Shown piece by piece: positions 6,565 to 10,576 of a stretch of DNA of 59,103 nt. The notes beneath the pieces were generated by a model. The model saw only the letters and a list, made by a program, of their open reading frames with translations, made no database searches and was not told the DNA's origin. The translations under genes were made by a program, and so were the position numbers. This DNA is from Candidatus Kerfeldbacteria bacterium (GTDB taxonomy: Bacteria; Patescibacteriota; Patescibacteriia; UBA9570). Where the stretch lies: the NCBI GenBank assembly GCA_016182495.1, contig JACPGK010000005.1, positions 1 through 59,103 on the forward strand, read 5' to 3'. Position 1 is the stretch's first letter. Each line of letters starts with the position of its first letter.

Positions 6565-6593
6565 ACTATACTAAACAATCACCTTTTTGGCAA
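6565..6593 (-). promoter_or_regulatory. Promoter of the murI operon, leaderless type
   Basis: On the minus strand TTGCCA (6593-6588) and TATAGT (6570-6565) are 17 nt apart. The -10 box ends only 8 nt before the ATG at 6556, so transcription should begin at or next to the start codon. It lies across the stop of the upstream methyltransferase gene and would give the six-gene operon its own transcription. Confidence 0.7.
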
Positions 6594-7251
6594 GAGTAAC
6601 AATATTGTACTGATGGCTGGAGTAGGCTTGGGTAATTGGCTCCCAACCAGTCTGCTGCAGTAAGCTGGCTAATTCTGGAATAGTAAAACCGTGATAGTAG
6701 CGTTGAGCTAAAATTTTTCCCTGATCGTTTTTCCACGGTATTAAAAAATCATTATCATCAAAGCCATCAGCCTGGTTAGCCCGATATGATTGGTACCGGA
6801 GTTGGTGTAAATTCCAATTGGTCATAAATAATATCGCTCCGGGCTGACTAACTCGATAGGCTTCATCTAAGCACTGTATTTTCAATTGTAACGATGGTAT
6901 ATGTTGTAGGCTGGCAATCATGGTAATAACGTCGAAAGTGTGATCAACTAATGGTAATGCCAACATCGAACCCTGGATAAAGCGTTGGCGTGAATGCCGC
7001 TGTTGAGCCAGGGCTAGTAAGTTAGCCGAGAAATCCAAGCCAGTATAGTGTAGCTTGATTTTCTCTGCCAGTTCGGCTAGTCTGCCACTACCACAACCCA
7101 TATCCAATAACTGCTGCGACGGCTGTAACACTGCTTCAAGCAGAGCAAACTCTGGCCAAGCGGCTTGACGAGTGCTGGCAAACTGTGGCGCAATTACATC
7201 GTAATCTTGTTCTAGTTGCTGCATTAATTGTTTGGCCAATGACAGAAGCAT
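6571..7251 (-). CDS. Trm9/ABH8-like tRNA wobble-uridine methyltransferase
   Basis: A 226-residue class I SAM methyltransferase with motif I DMGCGSG (50-56). Outside the general fold it carries marks of the Trm9/ABH8 group that methylates 5-carboxymethyl-uridine 34 to mcm5U. These are YDVIAPQF (17-24) followed by TR and WP (27-33), FLIPW (169-173, yeast VFVPW), and RYYHGF..PEL (184-193, yeast RYYHLYREGEL). Elp3, which makes the cm5U substrate, is the divergent neighbour. The family match is seen directly; substrate and the need for a Trm112-like partner are inferred. A plain small-molecule methyltransferase is the alternative. The start at 7251 is supported by a -10 box 6 nt upstream. Confidence 0.75.
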   Translation of the reverse strand: MLLSLAKQLMQQLEQDYDVIAPQFASTRQAAWPEFALLEAVLQPSQQLLDMGCGSGRLAELAEKIKLHYTGLDFSANLLALAQQRHSRQRFIQGSMLALPLVDHTFDVITMIASLQHIPSLQLKIQCLDEAYRVSQPGAILFMTNWNLHQLRYQSYRANQADGFDDNDFLIPWKNDQGKILAQRYYHGFTIPELASLLQQTGWEPITQAYSSHQYNIVTLAKKVIV

Positions 7252-8819
7252 TACACACTATTATTACACAATCATTAGAACGGCAAGTGAGTGATGCCCT
7301 AAGTTTGCGTACTATTAAAGCCGAAGTGGCTAAACAGTACGGGGTGAGCATGCCTACCAATGCTAGCATATTGGCTGCCTATCACAAACTACTCACCGAA
7401 CAACGTCAGCTCGCTGACCAAAAGTTTTTGCGGTTATTACAAGTGCGTAGCGTGCGTACGTTATCAGGTATTGCGCCAATTACTGTGCTGACAAAACCAT
7501 ACCAATGCCCGGGCCGCTGTATCTATTGTCCAACCGAAGCGAACATGCCAAAAAGTTATATTGATACTGAACCCGGAGCAATGCGGGCGTTGGCCTTGCG
7601 CTTTGATCCGTATCAGCAGGTCACCAAACGGTTACAGGCTTTAGAACAGAATGGCCATATTCCCGAGAAATGCGAACTGATCGTATTAGGTGGCACCTGG
7701 ACAGCCTATCCCAATGATTATCAAGAGTGGTTTATGAAACGATGCTACGATGGCTTTAACGAAGATCATCGGGTTGATGGAGCGGCCGGCTTGGCCGAAG
7801 CCAAGGCGTTAAATGAAACAGCGCGCTATCGGGTAATTGGATGTACCTTAGAAACTCGGCCAGATCATATTGATGAAACTGAAGTAAAACGGTTGCGTTG
7901 GTTTGGGGCTACCCGTATCCAAATTGGCGTACAGTCGTTGAATAAACATGTGTTGGCTTTAAATTTACGCGATCAAACTAATGAGGGTGTGCAACACGCT
8001 ACCAAATTACTCAAAGAGGCCGGTTTAAAAATTACCTATCACATGATGCAAAATTTACCCGGCTCTGTACCGGCCAGTGATTTACAAGATATTAAAACTA
8101 TTTTTTCTGATCCTGGGTATCAACCGGATCATATTAAAATTTATCCATGCGTGGTAGTGAAATCAGCTCCTTTGTATCGCCATTGGAAAGCCGGCCGTTA
8201 TACAACCTACCCACCGGCCGTACTCACAAACTTGTTAGCCGATATTAAAGCTAACGTACCACCGTATGTGCGAATAGAACGCCTGGTGCGTGATATTCCG
8301 GCTAACTCTATTATTGATGGCAATACCATCACCAACCTGCGCCAAATTATGCAACAAAAAGGAGTCCAGTGTGTTTGTATTCGCTGTCGTGAACCACGAG
8401 CCGATACCACTGGAATTGAGCAAGCGGACCTGGTAGTACGTGAATATGATTCGGCTGATGGGCGTGAATATTTTATGTCGTTTGAAGATCCGGATCATAA
8501 AAAATTATTTGCCTTTGTACGTTTGCGCTTACAACACCGATTGAAGCATTGGTATGAAGAACTGCAAGACGCTGCTATTATTCGAGAGCTACATGTGTAC
8601 GGGCAGTTAGTGCCAGTGATGGAATCCTTCGACCAACTCGAAGCGTCTCCAGGTGTACAACACAAAGGGTTTGGCAGAAAATTAATGGAGCAGGCTGAAC
8701 AGATAGCGCGCGGCCAAGGGTTCAAAAAAATTGCCGTGATTGCCGGTGTTGGCGTACGTCAATATTATGAAAAACTAGGCTATCATTTAGATCAAGAGTA
8801 TATGATTAAAATTATATGA
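7239..8819 (+). CDS. elp3: Elp3: tRNA uridine-34 carboxymethylation radical SAM/GNAT enzyme
   Basis: A 526-residue two-domain enzyme. The radical-SAM half carries CX3CX2C (Cys90, Cys94, Cys97; CPGRCIYC), the iron-sulphur/SAM site, followed by the Elp3-typical LGGTWTAYP and GVQSL stretches and a CVCIRCREP zinc-binding-like segment. The C-terminal GNAT half carries the acetyl-CoA loop KGFGRKLM and GVGVRQYYEKLGY. Family members use acetyl-CoA and SAM to install the cm5 group on wobble U34. The reading frame is open to 7185, but that start would lie deep in the divergent gene. ATG 7239 is preferred, and GTG 7287 is possible. No Shine-Dalgarno is visible. Confidence 0.92.
   Translation: MTEALHTIITQSLERQVSDALSLRTIKAEVAKQYGVSMPTNASILAAYHKLLTEQRQLADQKFLRLLQVRSVRTLSGIAPITVLTKPYQCPGRCIYCPTEANMPKSYIDTEPGAMRALALRFDPYQQVTKRLQALEQNGHIPEKCELIVLGGTWTAYPNDYQEWFMKRCYDGFNEDHRVDGAAGLAEAKALNETARYRVIGCTLETRPDHIDETEVKRLRWFGATRIQIGVQSLNKHVLALNLRDQTNEGVQHATKLLKEAGLKITYHMMQNLPGSVPASDLQDIKTIFSDPGYQPDHIKIYPCVVVKSAPLYRHWKAGRYTTYPPAVLTNLLADIKANVPPYVRIERLVRDIPANSIIDGNTITNLRQIMQQKGVQCVCIRCREPRADTTGIEQADLVVREYDSADGREYFMSFEDPDHKKLFAFVRLRLQHRLKHWYEELQDAAIIRELHVYGQLVPVMESFDQLEASPGVQHKGFGRKLMEQAEQIARGQGFKKIAVIAGVGVRQYYEKLGYHLDQEYMIKII
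7258..7286 (-). promoter_or_regulatory. Promoter of the Trm9-like gene, inside elp3
   Basis: Minus-strand TTGCCG (7286-7281) and TAATAG (7263-7258), spacer 17 nt, with the -10 ending 6 nt before the ATG at 7251. The whole element lies within the first codons of elp3 on the opposite strand. Confidence 0.5.
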
Positions 8820-8837: not shown

Positions 8838-8875
8838 TTGACAACAATACATACATTGTATATACTAAGTATATA
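8838..8875 (+). promoter_or_regulatory. relBE promoter with overlapping palindromic operators
   Basis: TTGACA (8838-8843) and TATACT (8861-8866) are 17 nt apart, a consensus promoter. The start codon follows 8 nt after the -10 box. Two inverted repeats overlap it: ATACA-T-TGTAT at 8851-8861 in the spacer, and TATATACT-A-AGTATATA at 8859-8875 across the -10 box and start point. These are placed as expected for autorepression by a ribbon-helix-helix antitoxin. Confidence 0.75.
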
Positions 8876-9186
8876 TGAATACAGCGATCATCAATATTAA
8901 AACCGACCCTAAAGTAAAACAACAGGCGCAAAAAGTAGCTGAAGATTTAGGCTTGAGTTTAAGTACGGTTATCAATGGGTATCTTAAACAGTTTGTACGT
9001 AATAGAAGTTTTCAAGTCAGTTTATATGGTATCGAGGAACCATCTGATTATTTAATTCAAGCATTACAGACAGCACAAGCTGATGAGGCTGATGGTTGGG
9101 TATCGCCAACCTTCACTAATCTGCACGCTATGACTACTTGGCTGAATAATCCAGAACGGATATATAAAAATGGAAGTCGCGGTTAG
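8875..9186 (+). CDS. RelB/DinJ family antitoxin
   Basis: A 103-residue protein whose first 45 residues fit a ribbon-helix-helix DNA-binding domain (short strand NIKTDPKVKQQA, then helices around AEDLGLSLSTVINGYLKQF), as in RelB and DinJ. The rest is a flexible toxin-binding tail. It should neutralise the RelE-type toxin encoded next to it (17-nt gene overlap) and repress their shared promoter at the palindromes just upstream. The start codon lies so close to the -10 box that the mRNA would be leaderless. The gene follows elp3 on the same strand after a 55-nt gap. Confidence 0.85.
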   Translation: MNTAIINIKTDPKVKQQAQKVAEDLGLSLSTVINGYLKQFVRNRSFQVSLYGIEEPSDYLIQALQTAQADEADGWVSPTFTNLHAMTTWLNNPERIYKNGSRG

Positions 9187-9430
9187 TAGAAATTTTACCA
9201 AGCAATATAGTAAAGCTTCTCATAAAATTCAATTGGCGTTTCAAAATCGAGTACAGTTATTGTTGTCTAATCCACAACACTCGCAATTGCGGTTACACCT
9301 ATTACAAGGTAGGTTAAGAGGTTATTATAGTATAAATATAACGGGTGATTGGCGAGCACTCTTTATCTATCGTAACGACCAGACGATTGTTTTTCAGGCG
9401 ATTGGTACGCATAGTCAGTTGTATAAATAA
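9170..9430 (+). CDS. RelE/YafQ family mRNA-interferase toxin
   Basis: An 86-residue toxin with the YafQ/RelE signature: basic N-terminal helix region, HLLQGRLRGYYSINITGDWRAL, then the C-terminal IGTHSQLY. Members are ribosome-dependent endoribonucleases that cut mRNA in the A site. The catalytic basic and histidine residues of the YafQ branch (the His of the HxLxG stretch, the Arg of DWR and the His of GTHSQLY) all appear to be kept, so it is probably active. It overlaps the antitoxin gene by 17 nt, which couples their translation. Confidence 0.87.
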   Translation: MEVAVSRNFTKQYSKASHKIQLAFQNRVQLLLSNPQHSQLRLHLLQGRLRGYYSINITGDWRALFIYRNDQTIVFQAIGTHSQLYK

Positions 9431-9433
9431 TAT

Positions 9434-9973
9434 ATGTCAACACAAACACAACTGGAATATTATTTTCAACCATTACGCGAAGTGTATCCTAAACTGACTG
9501 CTGCCCAGCGCTTACTGGTGCGTAGTGTACTAGCTGAAAATTTTTTTGATGTTATTCGAGAGCAACTGGCACCACAGTTATACCTGGTATCAGATGAAAA
9601 CTTTATTGAGGAGATGAAACAACGGGTAGCTGTTTTTGTGGCAACTGATGAAATCACCAGTCCTTTGCTTGAAGGTTGTTTTCAAGCAGCTAAACAGCAC
9701 GGGTTGAATTCAATTTTAGCGTTATGTGAATATACGGCCATACAATACAGTGATGCTGAACGGGACTTGCAACGCAATCGAGTATTAGCTAATATTGATG
9801 ACGATACTCGTGAAAGACGGATTGATACTGTACATCAGCAGCAGGTTGAGTTGTTGAGCCAGATTGGAGAGATTTTTCCAGAAATGGCCCCTACTCTCAA
9901 CGATGATTTGACTGAACGCCGTCGTTTGAAATCATTGCCAGAACGTAAGCTTTTCCGCGAACCGATGCACTAA
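9434..9973 (+). CDS. Uncharacterised protein, first of a related pair
   Basis: A 179-residue, mainly helical, soluble and charged protein with no recognised domain, no signal peptide and no membrane segment. It starts 3 nt after the toxin stop, so it should be read from the toxin-antitoxin transcript. It resembles the next gene in layout. Both have an early EY..L then QRL(L/I)VR or QRLIRVI helix, a middle stretch AAKQHGLNSILALCEY (here) versus AAEQLQLHSLAELCGQ (there), and a basic C-terminal end. The two probably arose by duplication. Function is unknown; a role linked to the toxin module is only a guess from position. Confidence 0.7.
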   Translation: MSTQTQLEYYFQPLREVYPKLTAAQRLLVRSVLAENFFDVIREQLAPQLYLVSDENFIEEMKQRVAVFVATDEITSPLLEGCFQAAKQHGLNSILALCEYTAIQYSDAERDLQRNRVLANIDDDTRERRIDTVHQQQVELLSQIGEIFPEMAPTLNDDLTERRRLKSLPERKLFREPMH

Positions 9974-9976
9974 ACT

Positions 9977-10576
9977 ATGTCGTCACCTCATCAACTATTG
10001 GCAGAATACCAGGCCTTAAGCTCGCCTACACAACAGCGACTGATTCGAGTGATTGTGAATACTATACTAGGACGAGCAGTCAGAAATTATTTTGAACAAG
10101 GCTATGCTAACGCTGATACGATGGCCCGCATTGATGCTGTGGAAGCCGCTCGAGACCAGTTTATTCATGGCGATCAGGCTGAAGCGGTATTACATTACTG
10201 TCTACCCGCCGCTGAACAATTACAGCTGCATTCATTGGCGGAACTGTGTGGTCAGTGGTTATTTGAATCGCTGCTGTATACTAATCCAGAATATCGACCA
10301 CGGTCAGATATGCTTGAAATTGACCCAGGTAACATTGATCCTACACCAGTTGAAAAGCGGCCGTTAGTGCGCCTAAAGTTTCAACTGCAAGAATTACAAC
10401 GCAAGCAAGATCAATTACAACATAGTGGTTTGGATCAAACCATCATTGATCAAGCCAGTCAATATGCTCAACGATTAATGACCGAGCACCGACTGGAACA
10501 CCCCCAAGATTATCCAGCTGTAGAAGCTCAAGCTCAATTACGTAAACTCACTCGCCGAACAGAGCCATTTCACTAA
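9977..10576 (+). CDS. Uncharacterised protein, second of a related pair
   Basis: A 199-residue helical soluble protein beginning 3 nt after the preceding gene. It shares its helix pattern and the AAEQLQLHSLAELCGQ-like central segment with that gene, plus a glutamine- and charge-rich, coiled-coil-prone stretch (about 125-150) before the C-terminus. No catalytic motif, membrane segment or signal peptide is visible. It ends 54 nt before glyA, and a separate promoter probably lies in that gap. Unassigned; possibly a lineage-specific protein. Confidence 0.68.
   Translation: MSSPHQLLAEYQALSSPTQQRLIRVIVNTILGRAVRNYFEQGYANADTMARIDAVEAARDQFIHGDQAEAVLHYCLPAAEQLQLHSLAELCGQWLFESLLYTNPEYRPRSDMLEIDPGNIDPTPVEKRPLVRLKFQLQELQRKQDQLQHSGLDQTIIDQASQYAQRLMTEHRLEHPQDYPAVEAQAQLRKLTRRTEPFH

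Follow-up and report, generated by a model that had tools for sequence, protein, structure and literature searches.

Does an elp3 gene that lies head to head with the gene for a small methyltransferase in a member of the Patescibacteria specify a wobble-uridine pathway of the eukaryotic kind? In the usual division, cmnm5/mnm5U34 is bacterial and mcm5U34 is eukaryotic, and two reviews state that bacteria are without Trm9 relatives or that mcm5U is found only in eukaryotes (PMC5372719, PMC6382703). The window, by which we mean the whole stretch of 59,103 nucleotides that was analyzed, comes from a Candidatus Kerfeldbacteria assembly of 1.31 Mb in 38 contigs that is 96% complete. It encodes a Trm9-like class I SAM-dependent methyltransferase of 226 aa on the minus strand (6571..7251) and an Elp3 protein of 526 aa with radical SAM and acetyltransferase domains on the plus strand (7239..8819), and these positions and the divergent orientation are as an earlier note on this DNA had stated. 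We consider it probable that this gene pair is a compact pathway in which Elp3 makes cm5U34 and the Trm9-like enzyme converts it to mcm5U34 without Trm112, with thiolation by MnmA.

The Elp3 protein scores 524 bits on the TIGR01211 model (cut-off 350) over residues 9–525, that is, over its full length, and it aligns along its whole length with the archaeal and bacterial Elp3 structures 6ia8 and 5l7j (E ~1e-112). The cysteines of the radical-SAM CxxxCxxC motif (C90, C94, and C97) do not vary among 130 homologs taken from the collected loci, and Pfam matches to the GNAT acetyl-CoA domain were found. The stretch CVCIRCRE aligns with the linker cysteines of the Dehalococcoides protein, and such linker cysteines have been reported in bacterial and archaeal, but not in eukaryotic, Elp3 (PMC6367351). 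The identity of the gene at 7239–8819 (+) as elp3 is thereby confirmed, and it is a predicted cm5U34 maker; for archaeal Elp3, the production of cm5U34 is established (PMC13315578). Like Elp3 of Dehalococcoides mccartyi (5l7j), whose cysteine motifs it shares, it is a bacterial Elp3 that stands alone; unlike the situation here, no linked Trm9-like gene has been reported for D. mccartyi in the literature examined. The listed elp3 open reading frame begins with GTG at 7185; however, because similarity to the profile and to homologs sets in just downstream of the ATG at 7239, this ATG is likely the true start. The methyltransferase start at 7251 aligns with the starts of the 31 other members of a 32-member family alignment (A1), and with these two inferred starts the 5′ ends of the genes would share about 13 nt (7239..7251, no strand assigned). 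Directly downstream of elp3 lie genes for a RelB-type antitoxin and a YafQ/ParE-type toxin (8875–9186 and 9170–9430, +), adjoined by open reading frames of 179 and 199 aa (9434–9973 and 9977–10576, +) with no Pfam match.

General domain libraries return only a class I methyltransferase domain (Methyltransf_11) for the neighboring protein METHYLTRANSFERASE. A single-sequence search of the PDB placed Trm9 from Yarrowia (5cm2_Z) fourth, and of the top four matches it alone aligned over nearly the full length, including the TR..WP, PW, and RYYH motifs. With a family profile built from alignment A1, 5cm2_Z ranked first among 177,635 PDB sequences (E 1e-29). Reciprocally, Yarrowia Trm9 has one significant match in the 1.3-Mb genome, which is this methyltransferase (E 7e-8), and in the genomes of relatives the match is usually the neighbor of Elp3. 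The profile gives 106–120 bits on yeast-type and haloarchaeal Trm9 and 27–48 bits on UbiE, UbiG, BioC, CmoM, and CmoA from Escherichia coli. The likeness of the methyltransferase to Trm9 exceeds chance. The affinity to Trm9/ABH8 that the earlier note had read from short phrases is thus borne out by profile and reciprocal searches; the phrases themselves (YDVIAPQF..TR..WP, FLIPW, and RYYHGF..PEL) can be read in the protein, and their TR..WP, PW, and RYYH portions coincide with the sequence of the Trm9 crystal structure outside the SAM core, where that note had placed them. A plasmid search additionally found a stand-alone Trm9-like methyltransferase on a megaplasmid of the haloarchaeon Natronorubrum bangense (L226:3518-4228), for which Trm9 alone in the PDB reaches an E value of 1e-8 or better, and a Trm9 scan of viral sequences found no relative. 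Records titled Lysobacteraceae (L141) and Omnitrophota (L147) carry versions of the methyltransferase like those of Patescibacteria and are perhaps mis-binned contigs.

In yeast Trm9, the substitutions R29A, H115A, R241A, Y243A, and N271A cause loss of tRNA affinity and of activity or turnover (PMC5372719). Placed by motif, the equivalents of R241, Y243, and N271 are R184 (conserved in 131 of 142 homologs), Y186 (tyrosine in the window protein and in 89 of 142), and N216 (135 of 142). The equivalents of R29 and H115 we take, by counting along the yeast sequence, to be R28, which is present in all 142 homologs, and position 116, which is Q in the window protein and H in 114, N in 13, and Q in 11 of the homologs. 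On this mapping by motif and by count, four of the five functional residues are kept in the window protein and H115 is replaced by Q116. An AlphaFold model of the methyltransferase (pLDDT 96.5, pTM 0.92) contains a two-stranded β hairpin at residues 168–187 (strands 168–174 and 180–187) that bears the PW and RYYH motifs, and the modeled hairpin looks like the lid described for Trm9 (PMC5372719).

To what extent the two genes occur together was determined in 380 Patescibacteria genomes, in which the methyltransferase was called at an A1 profile score of at least 105 bits, a cut that we chose. Elp3 is encoded in 140 of these genomes and the methyltransferase in 109, of which all but one (108) also encode Elp3. 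The two genes are at most 500 bp apart in 88 of the 108 genomes and divergent in every one of these 88; in ten others they lie on the same contig but farther apart, and in the last ten they lie on separate contigs. The 108 genomes represent 55 family groups (counted by hand), and Fisher's test of the association gives p 2.6e-64, uncorrected for phylogeny. Because 32 of the 140 genomes with Elp3 have no detected methyltransferase (e.g., in family group f72), Elp3 does not everywhere require the methyltransferase; in such genomes, modification may stop at cm5U, or this base may be processed otherwise. In a collection of named genomes, 430 relatives were confirmed and 80 were kept, nearly all with titles of Patescibacteria lineages or unclassified bacteria; Elp3 lies within the stretch at 64 of the 80 kept loci and is divergent at 62 of these 64. 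The gene neighborhood, whose conservation the earlier note had left to be examined, is therefore strongly conserved in both sets.

Profile searches, on which all gene absences reported here rest, were also used to look for the partners expected in each known pathway, and those for MnmE and MnmG were positive in nine control genomes. MnmG has no match in the genome of the window or in any of the 57 class-level genomes, which include it; across the phylum it was found in 6 of 380 genomes (absent from 374) and never together with Elp3, which with n = 6 could be chance. For MnmE, nothing near the cut-off was found in this genome or in the 57 class-level genomes. The matches obtained consist of GTPase domains alone, mostly as tandem pairs within one open reading frame as in Der, and were rejected as MnmE; their tandem layout suggests that they are Der. 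Thus both enzymes, whose presence the earlier note would have counted against the pathway, are absent. That note had also seen no obvious Trm112, and indeed no match to PF03966 was found in the genome, where a short gene could be missed at 96% completeness; this domain is over its cut-off in 2 of the 57 class-level genomes, inside longer open reading frames. MnmA, the enzyme for s2U34, is present in the genome and is over its cut-off in 50 of the 57.

Gene identities, homology, arrangement, co-occurrence, and the absences of MnmE, MnmG, and Trm112 being established, we infer reaction products, step order, tRNA substrates, and partner independence as follows. Elp3 would use acetyl-CoA and radical SAM chemistry to carboxymethylate C5 of U34 in split-box tRNAs (cm5U34), and the adjacent enzyme, which its profile, residues, and AlphaFold model mark as a predicted tRNA cm5U34 carboxyl methyltransferase, would transfer the methyl group of SAM to the carboxylate to give the ester mcm5U34. 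This step would need neither Trm112 nor the Elongator subunits Elp1-2/4-6. MnmA, encoded elsewhere, would 2-thiolate the Lys, Glu, and Gln tRNAs to give the final mcm5s2U34, and the three enzymes together would replace the absent MnmE/MnmG chemistry. The methyltransferase most likely works like Trm9; because Trm112 was sought and not found, we do not class it as a Trm9-Trm112 holoenzyme.

Several observations speak against this pathway. Among them are the 32 Elp3 genomes with no detected methyltransferase, and also fold comparisons that do not single out Trm9 and an AU test on the tree (both given below). In the window enzyme, Q116 takes the place of the H115 that is required in yeast Trm9, and Trm112 is missing although eukaryotic Trm9 and ABH8 depend on it (PMC5372719, PMC6382703) and the yeast Trm9 protein, when purified by itself, shows no activity in its absence (PMC6382703). 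The dependence of the eukaryotic enzymes, together with the almost constant adjacency of the two genes, would fit a version of the same pathway in which mcm5U is made with an unrecognized Trm112 substitute, possibly Elp3. No candidate partner was found, although without a systematic search, and the methyltransferase model folds confidently alone (pLDDT 96.5), which still leaves room for a partner. We regard this version as doubtful but worth keeping in mind; its probability overlaps that of the pathway as a whole and does not add to it. Less probable is that the methyltransferase acts on another site or base of tRNA, such as m3C32 like METTL6 or an ester of cmo5U34 like CmoM, and lies near Elp3 since both act on the anticodon loop. 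CmoM likewise esterifies a U34 carboxylate, and METTL6 is level with or above Trm9 in comparisons of the modeled fold, which have no power to decide function, with many class I methyltransferases tying: Foldseek placed METTL6 and 5cm2_Z at ranks 2 and 3 with an uncharacterized archaeal enzyme close by, and VIA-align put METTL6 first (Z 24.4 vs. 21.5 for Trm9). However, neither METTL6 nor CmoM is among the PDB profile matches at E 1e-12 or better, which Trm9 leads at 1e-29, and the family profile gives CmoM 36 bits compared with 106 for Trm9. The near-strict dependence on Elp3 (108/109) also argues against another target, and use of the Elp3 product by the methyltransferase is the best explanation of this co-occurrence.

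That an ordinary small-molecule methyltransferase of the UbiE or BioC type lies beside Elp3 by chance is very improbable. The generic Methyltransf_11 domain and the matches of UbiE models to the SAM core would allow it, and the broader Pfam model PF01209 passes its cut-off (45.5 vs. 20.1), again over the SAM core only. However, the scores on UbiE models are 71 bits against a cut-off of 158 (TIGR01934) and 67 against 216 (NF001244), and the protein is under every curated NCBIfam cut-off among the matches listed. In a maximum-likelihood tree, which includes just two Trm9-type references and involves long branches, Trm9 and the haloarchaeal Trm9-like protein fall inside the Elp3-linked set, and UbiE, UbiG, BioC, CmoM, and CmoA fall outside it with support of 95/92; an AU test does not reject a grouping of Trm9 with these other methyltransferases (p 0.28). 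On the model scores, the low family-profile score of UbiE, and its position outside the Trm9/Elp3-linked group, we rejected an identity as UbiE/COQ5, the grouping that the earlier note had named as the outcome contrary to its proposal. Chance would also have to account for a divergent pairing with Elp3 that is kept in 88 genomes.

The pathway proposed here, Elp3 followed by a Trm9-like enzyme, shares with the eukaryotic system of Elongator and Trm9-Trm112 or ALKBH8-TRMT112 the Elp3 core, a Trm9-type enzyme, most active-site residues on the mapping given above, and the lid motifs. It differs in that no Trm112 was found and the Patescibacteria pair is without an AlkB or RRM domain, in the head-to-head genes, and in the use of bacterial MnmA in place of Ncs6/Urm1. 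We know of no Elongator subunits other than Elp3 in prokaryotes. Closer is the archaeal combination of Elp3 with a predicted Trm9 in Haloferax and Sulfolobus (PMC2584109, PMC5372719), which likewise has no Elongator subunits, a co-occurring Trm9 homolog, and a predicted mcm5s2U-like base; however, the host here is bacterial, and in the archaea the thiolase is of the Tuc1 type and Trm112 is present in many. Because an Elp3-Trm9 gene cluster was noted in Sulfolobus solfataricus in 2008 (PMC2584109), a pathway reduced in this way is not a new idea. Like bacterial MnmE-MnmG-MnmC with MnmA, the pair would modify the same position (C5 of U34) of the same tRNAs, and thiolation by MnmA is kept, whereas the enzymes and the chemistry are different (mcm5 rather than cmnm5/mnm5) and MnmE and MnmG are missing.

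A bacterial pair of Elp3 and a Trm9-like enzyme contradicts the statements of the two reviews. A search of the open-licence literature for Elp3 together with Patescibacteria or the candidate phyla radiation and tRNA modification returned no paper. The presence of the pair in bacteria, how widely it is distributed there, its constant divergent arrangement, and its combination with MnmA where MnmE and MnmG are lacking all appear to be unreported in the searchable literature. We give about even chances to the broader proposal that mcm5U34/mcm5s2U34 is standard in a large part of the Patescibacteria through a two-enzyme, Trm112-free Elp3-Trm9 system that replaces MnmE/MnmG, with eukaryotic and archaeal Trm9 nested among the bacterial sequences. 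If the proposal holds, a pathway thought to be confined to eukaryotes and perhaps some archaea would be carried in a two-gene version by many ultra-small Patescibacteria, which would break the usual division, bear on the origin of eukaryotic Trm9, and give a minimal model of a disease-relevant human pathway.

The bacterial pair would also suggest how Patescibacteria free of MnmE and MnmG decode split boxes. All 47 tRNAs of the genome were read, and among them are Lys UUU, Glu UUC, Gln UUG, Arg UCU, and Gly UCC, the five anticodons that make up the usual mcm5U-type set. The genome also encodes a tRNA-Ile with the anticodon UAU (G000 contig C35:17838-17910, L190), with no more than two CAU tRNAs among those read; AUA is therefore probably read without a lysidine-modified tRNA-Ile.
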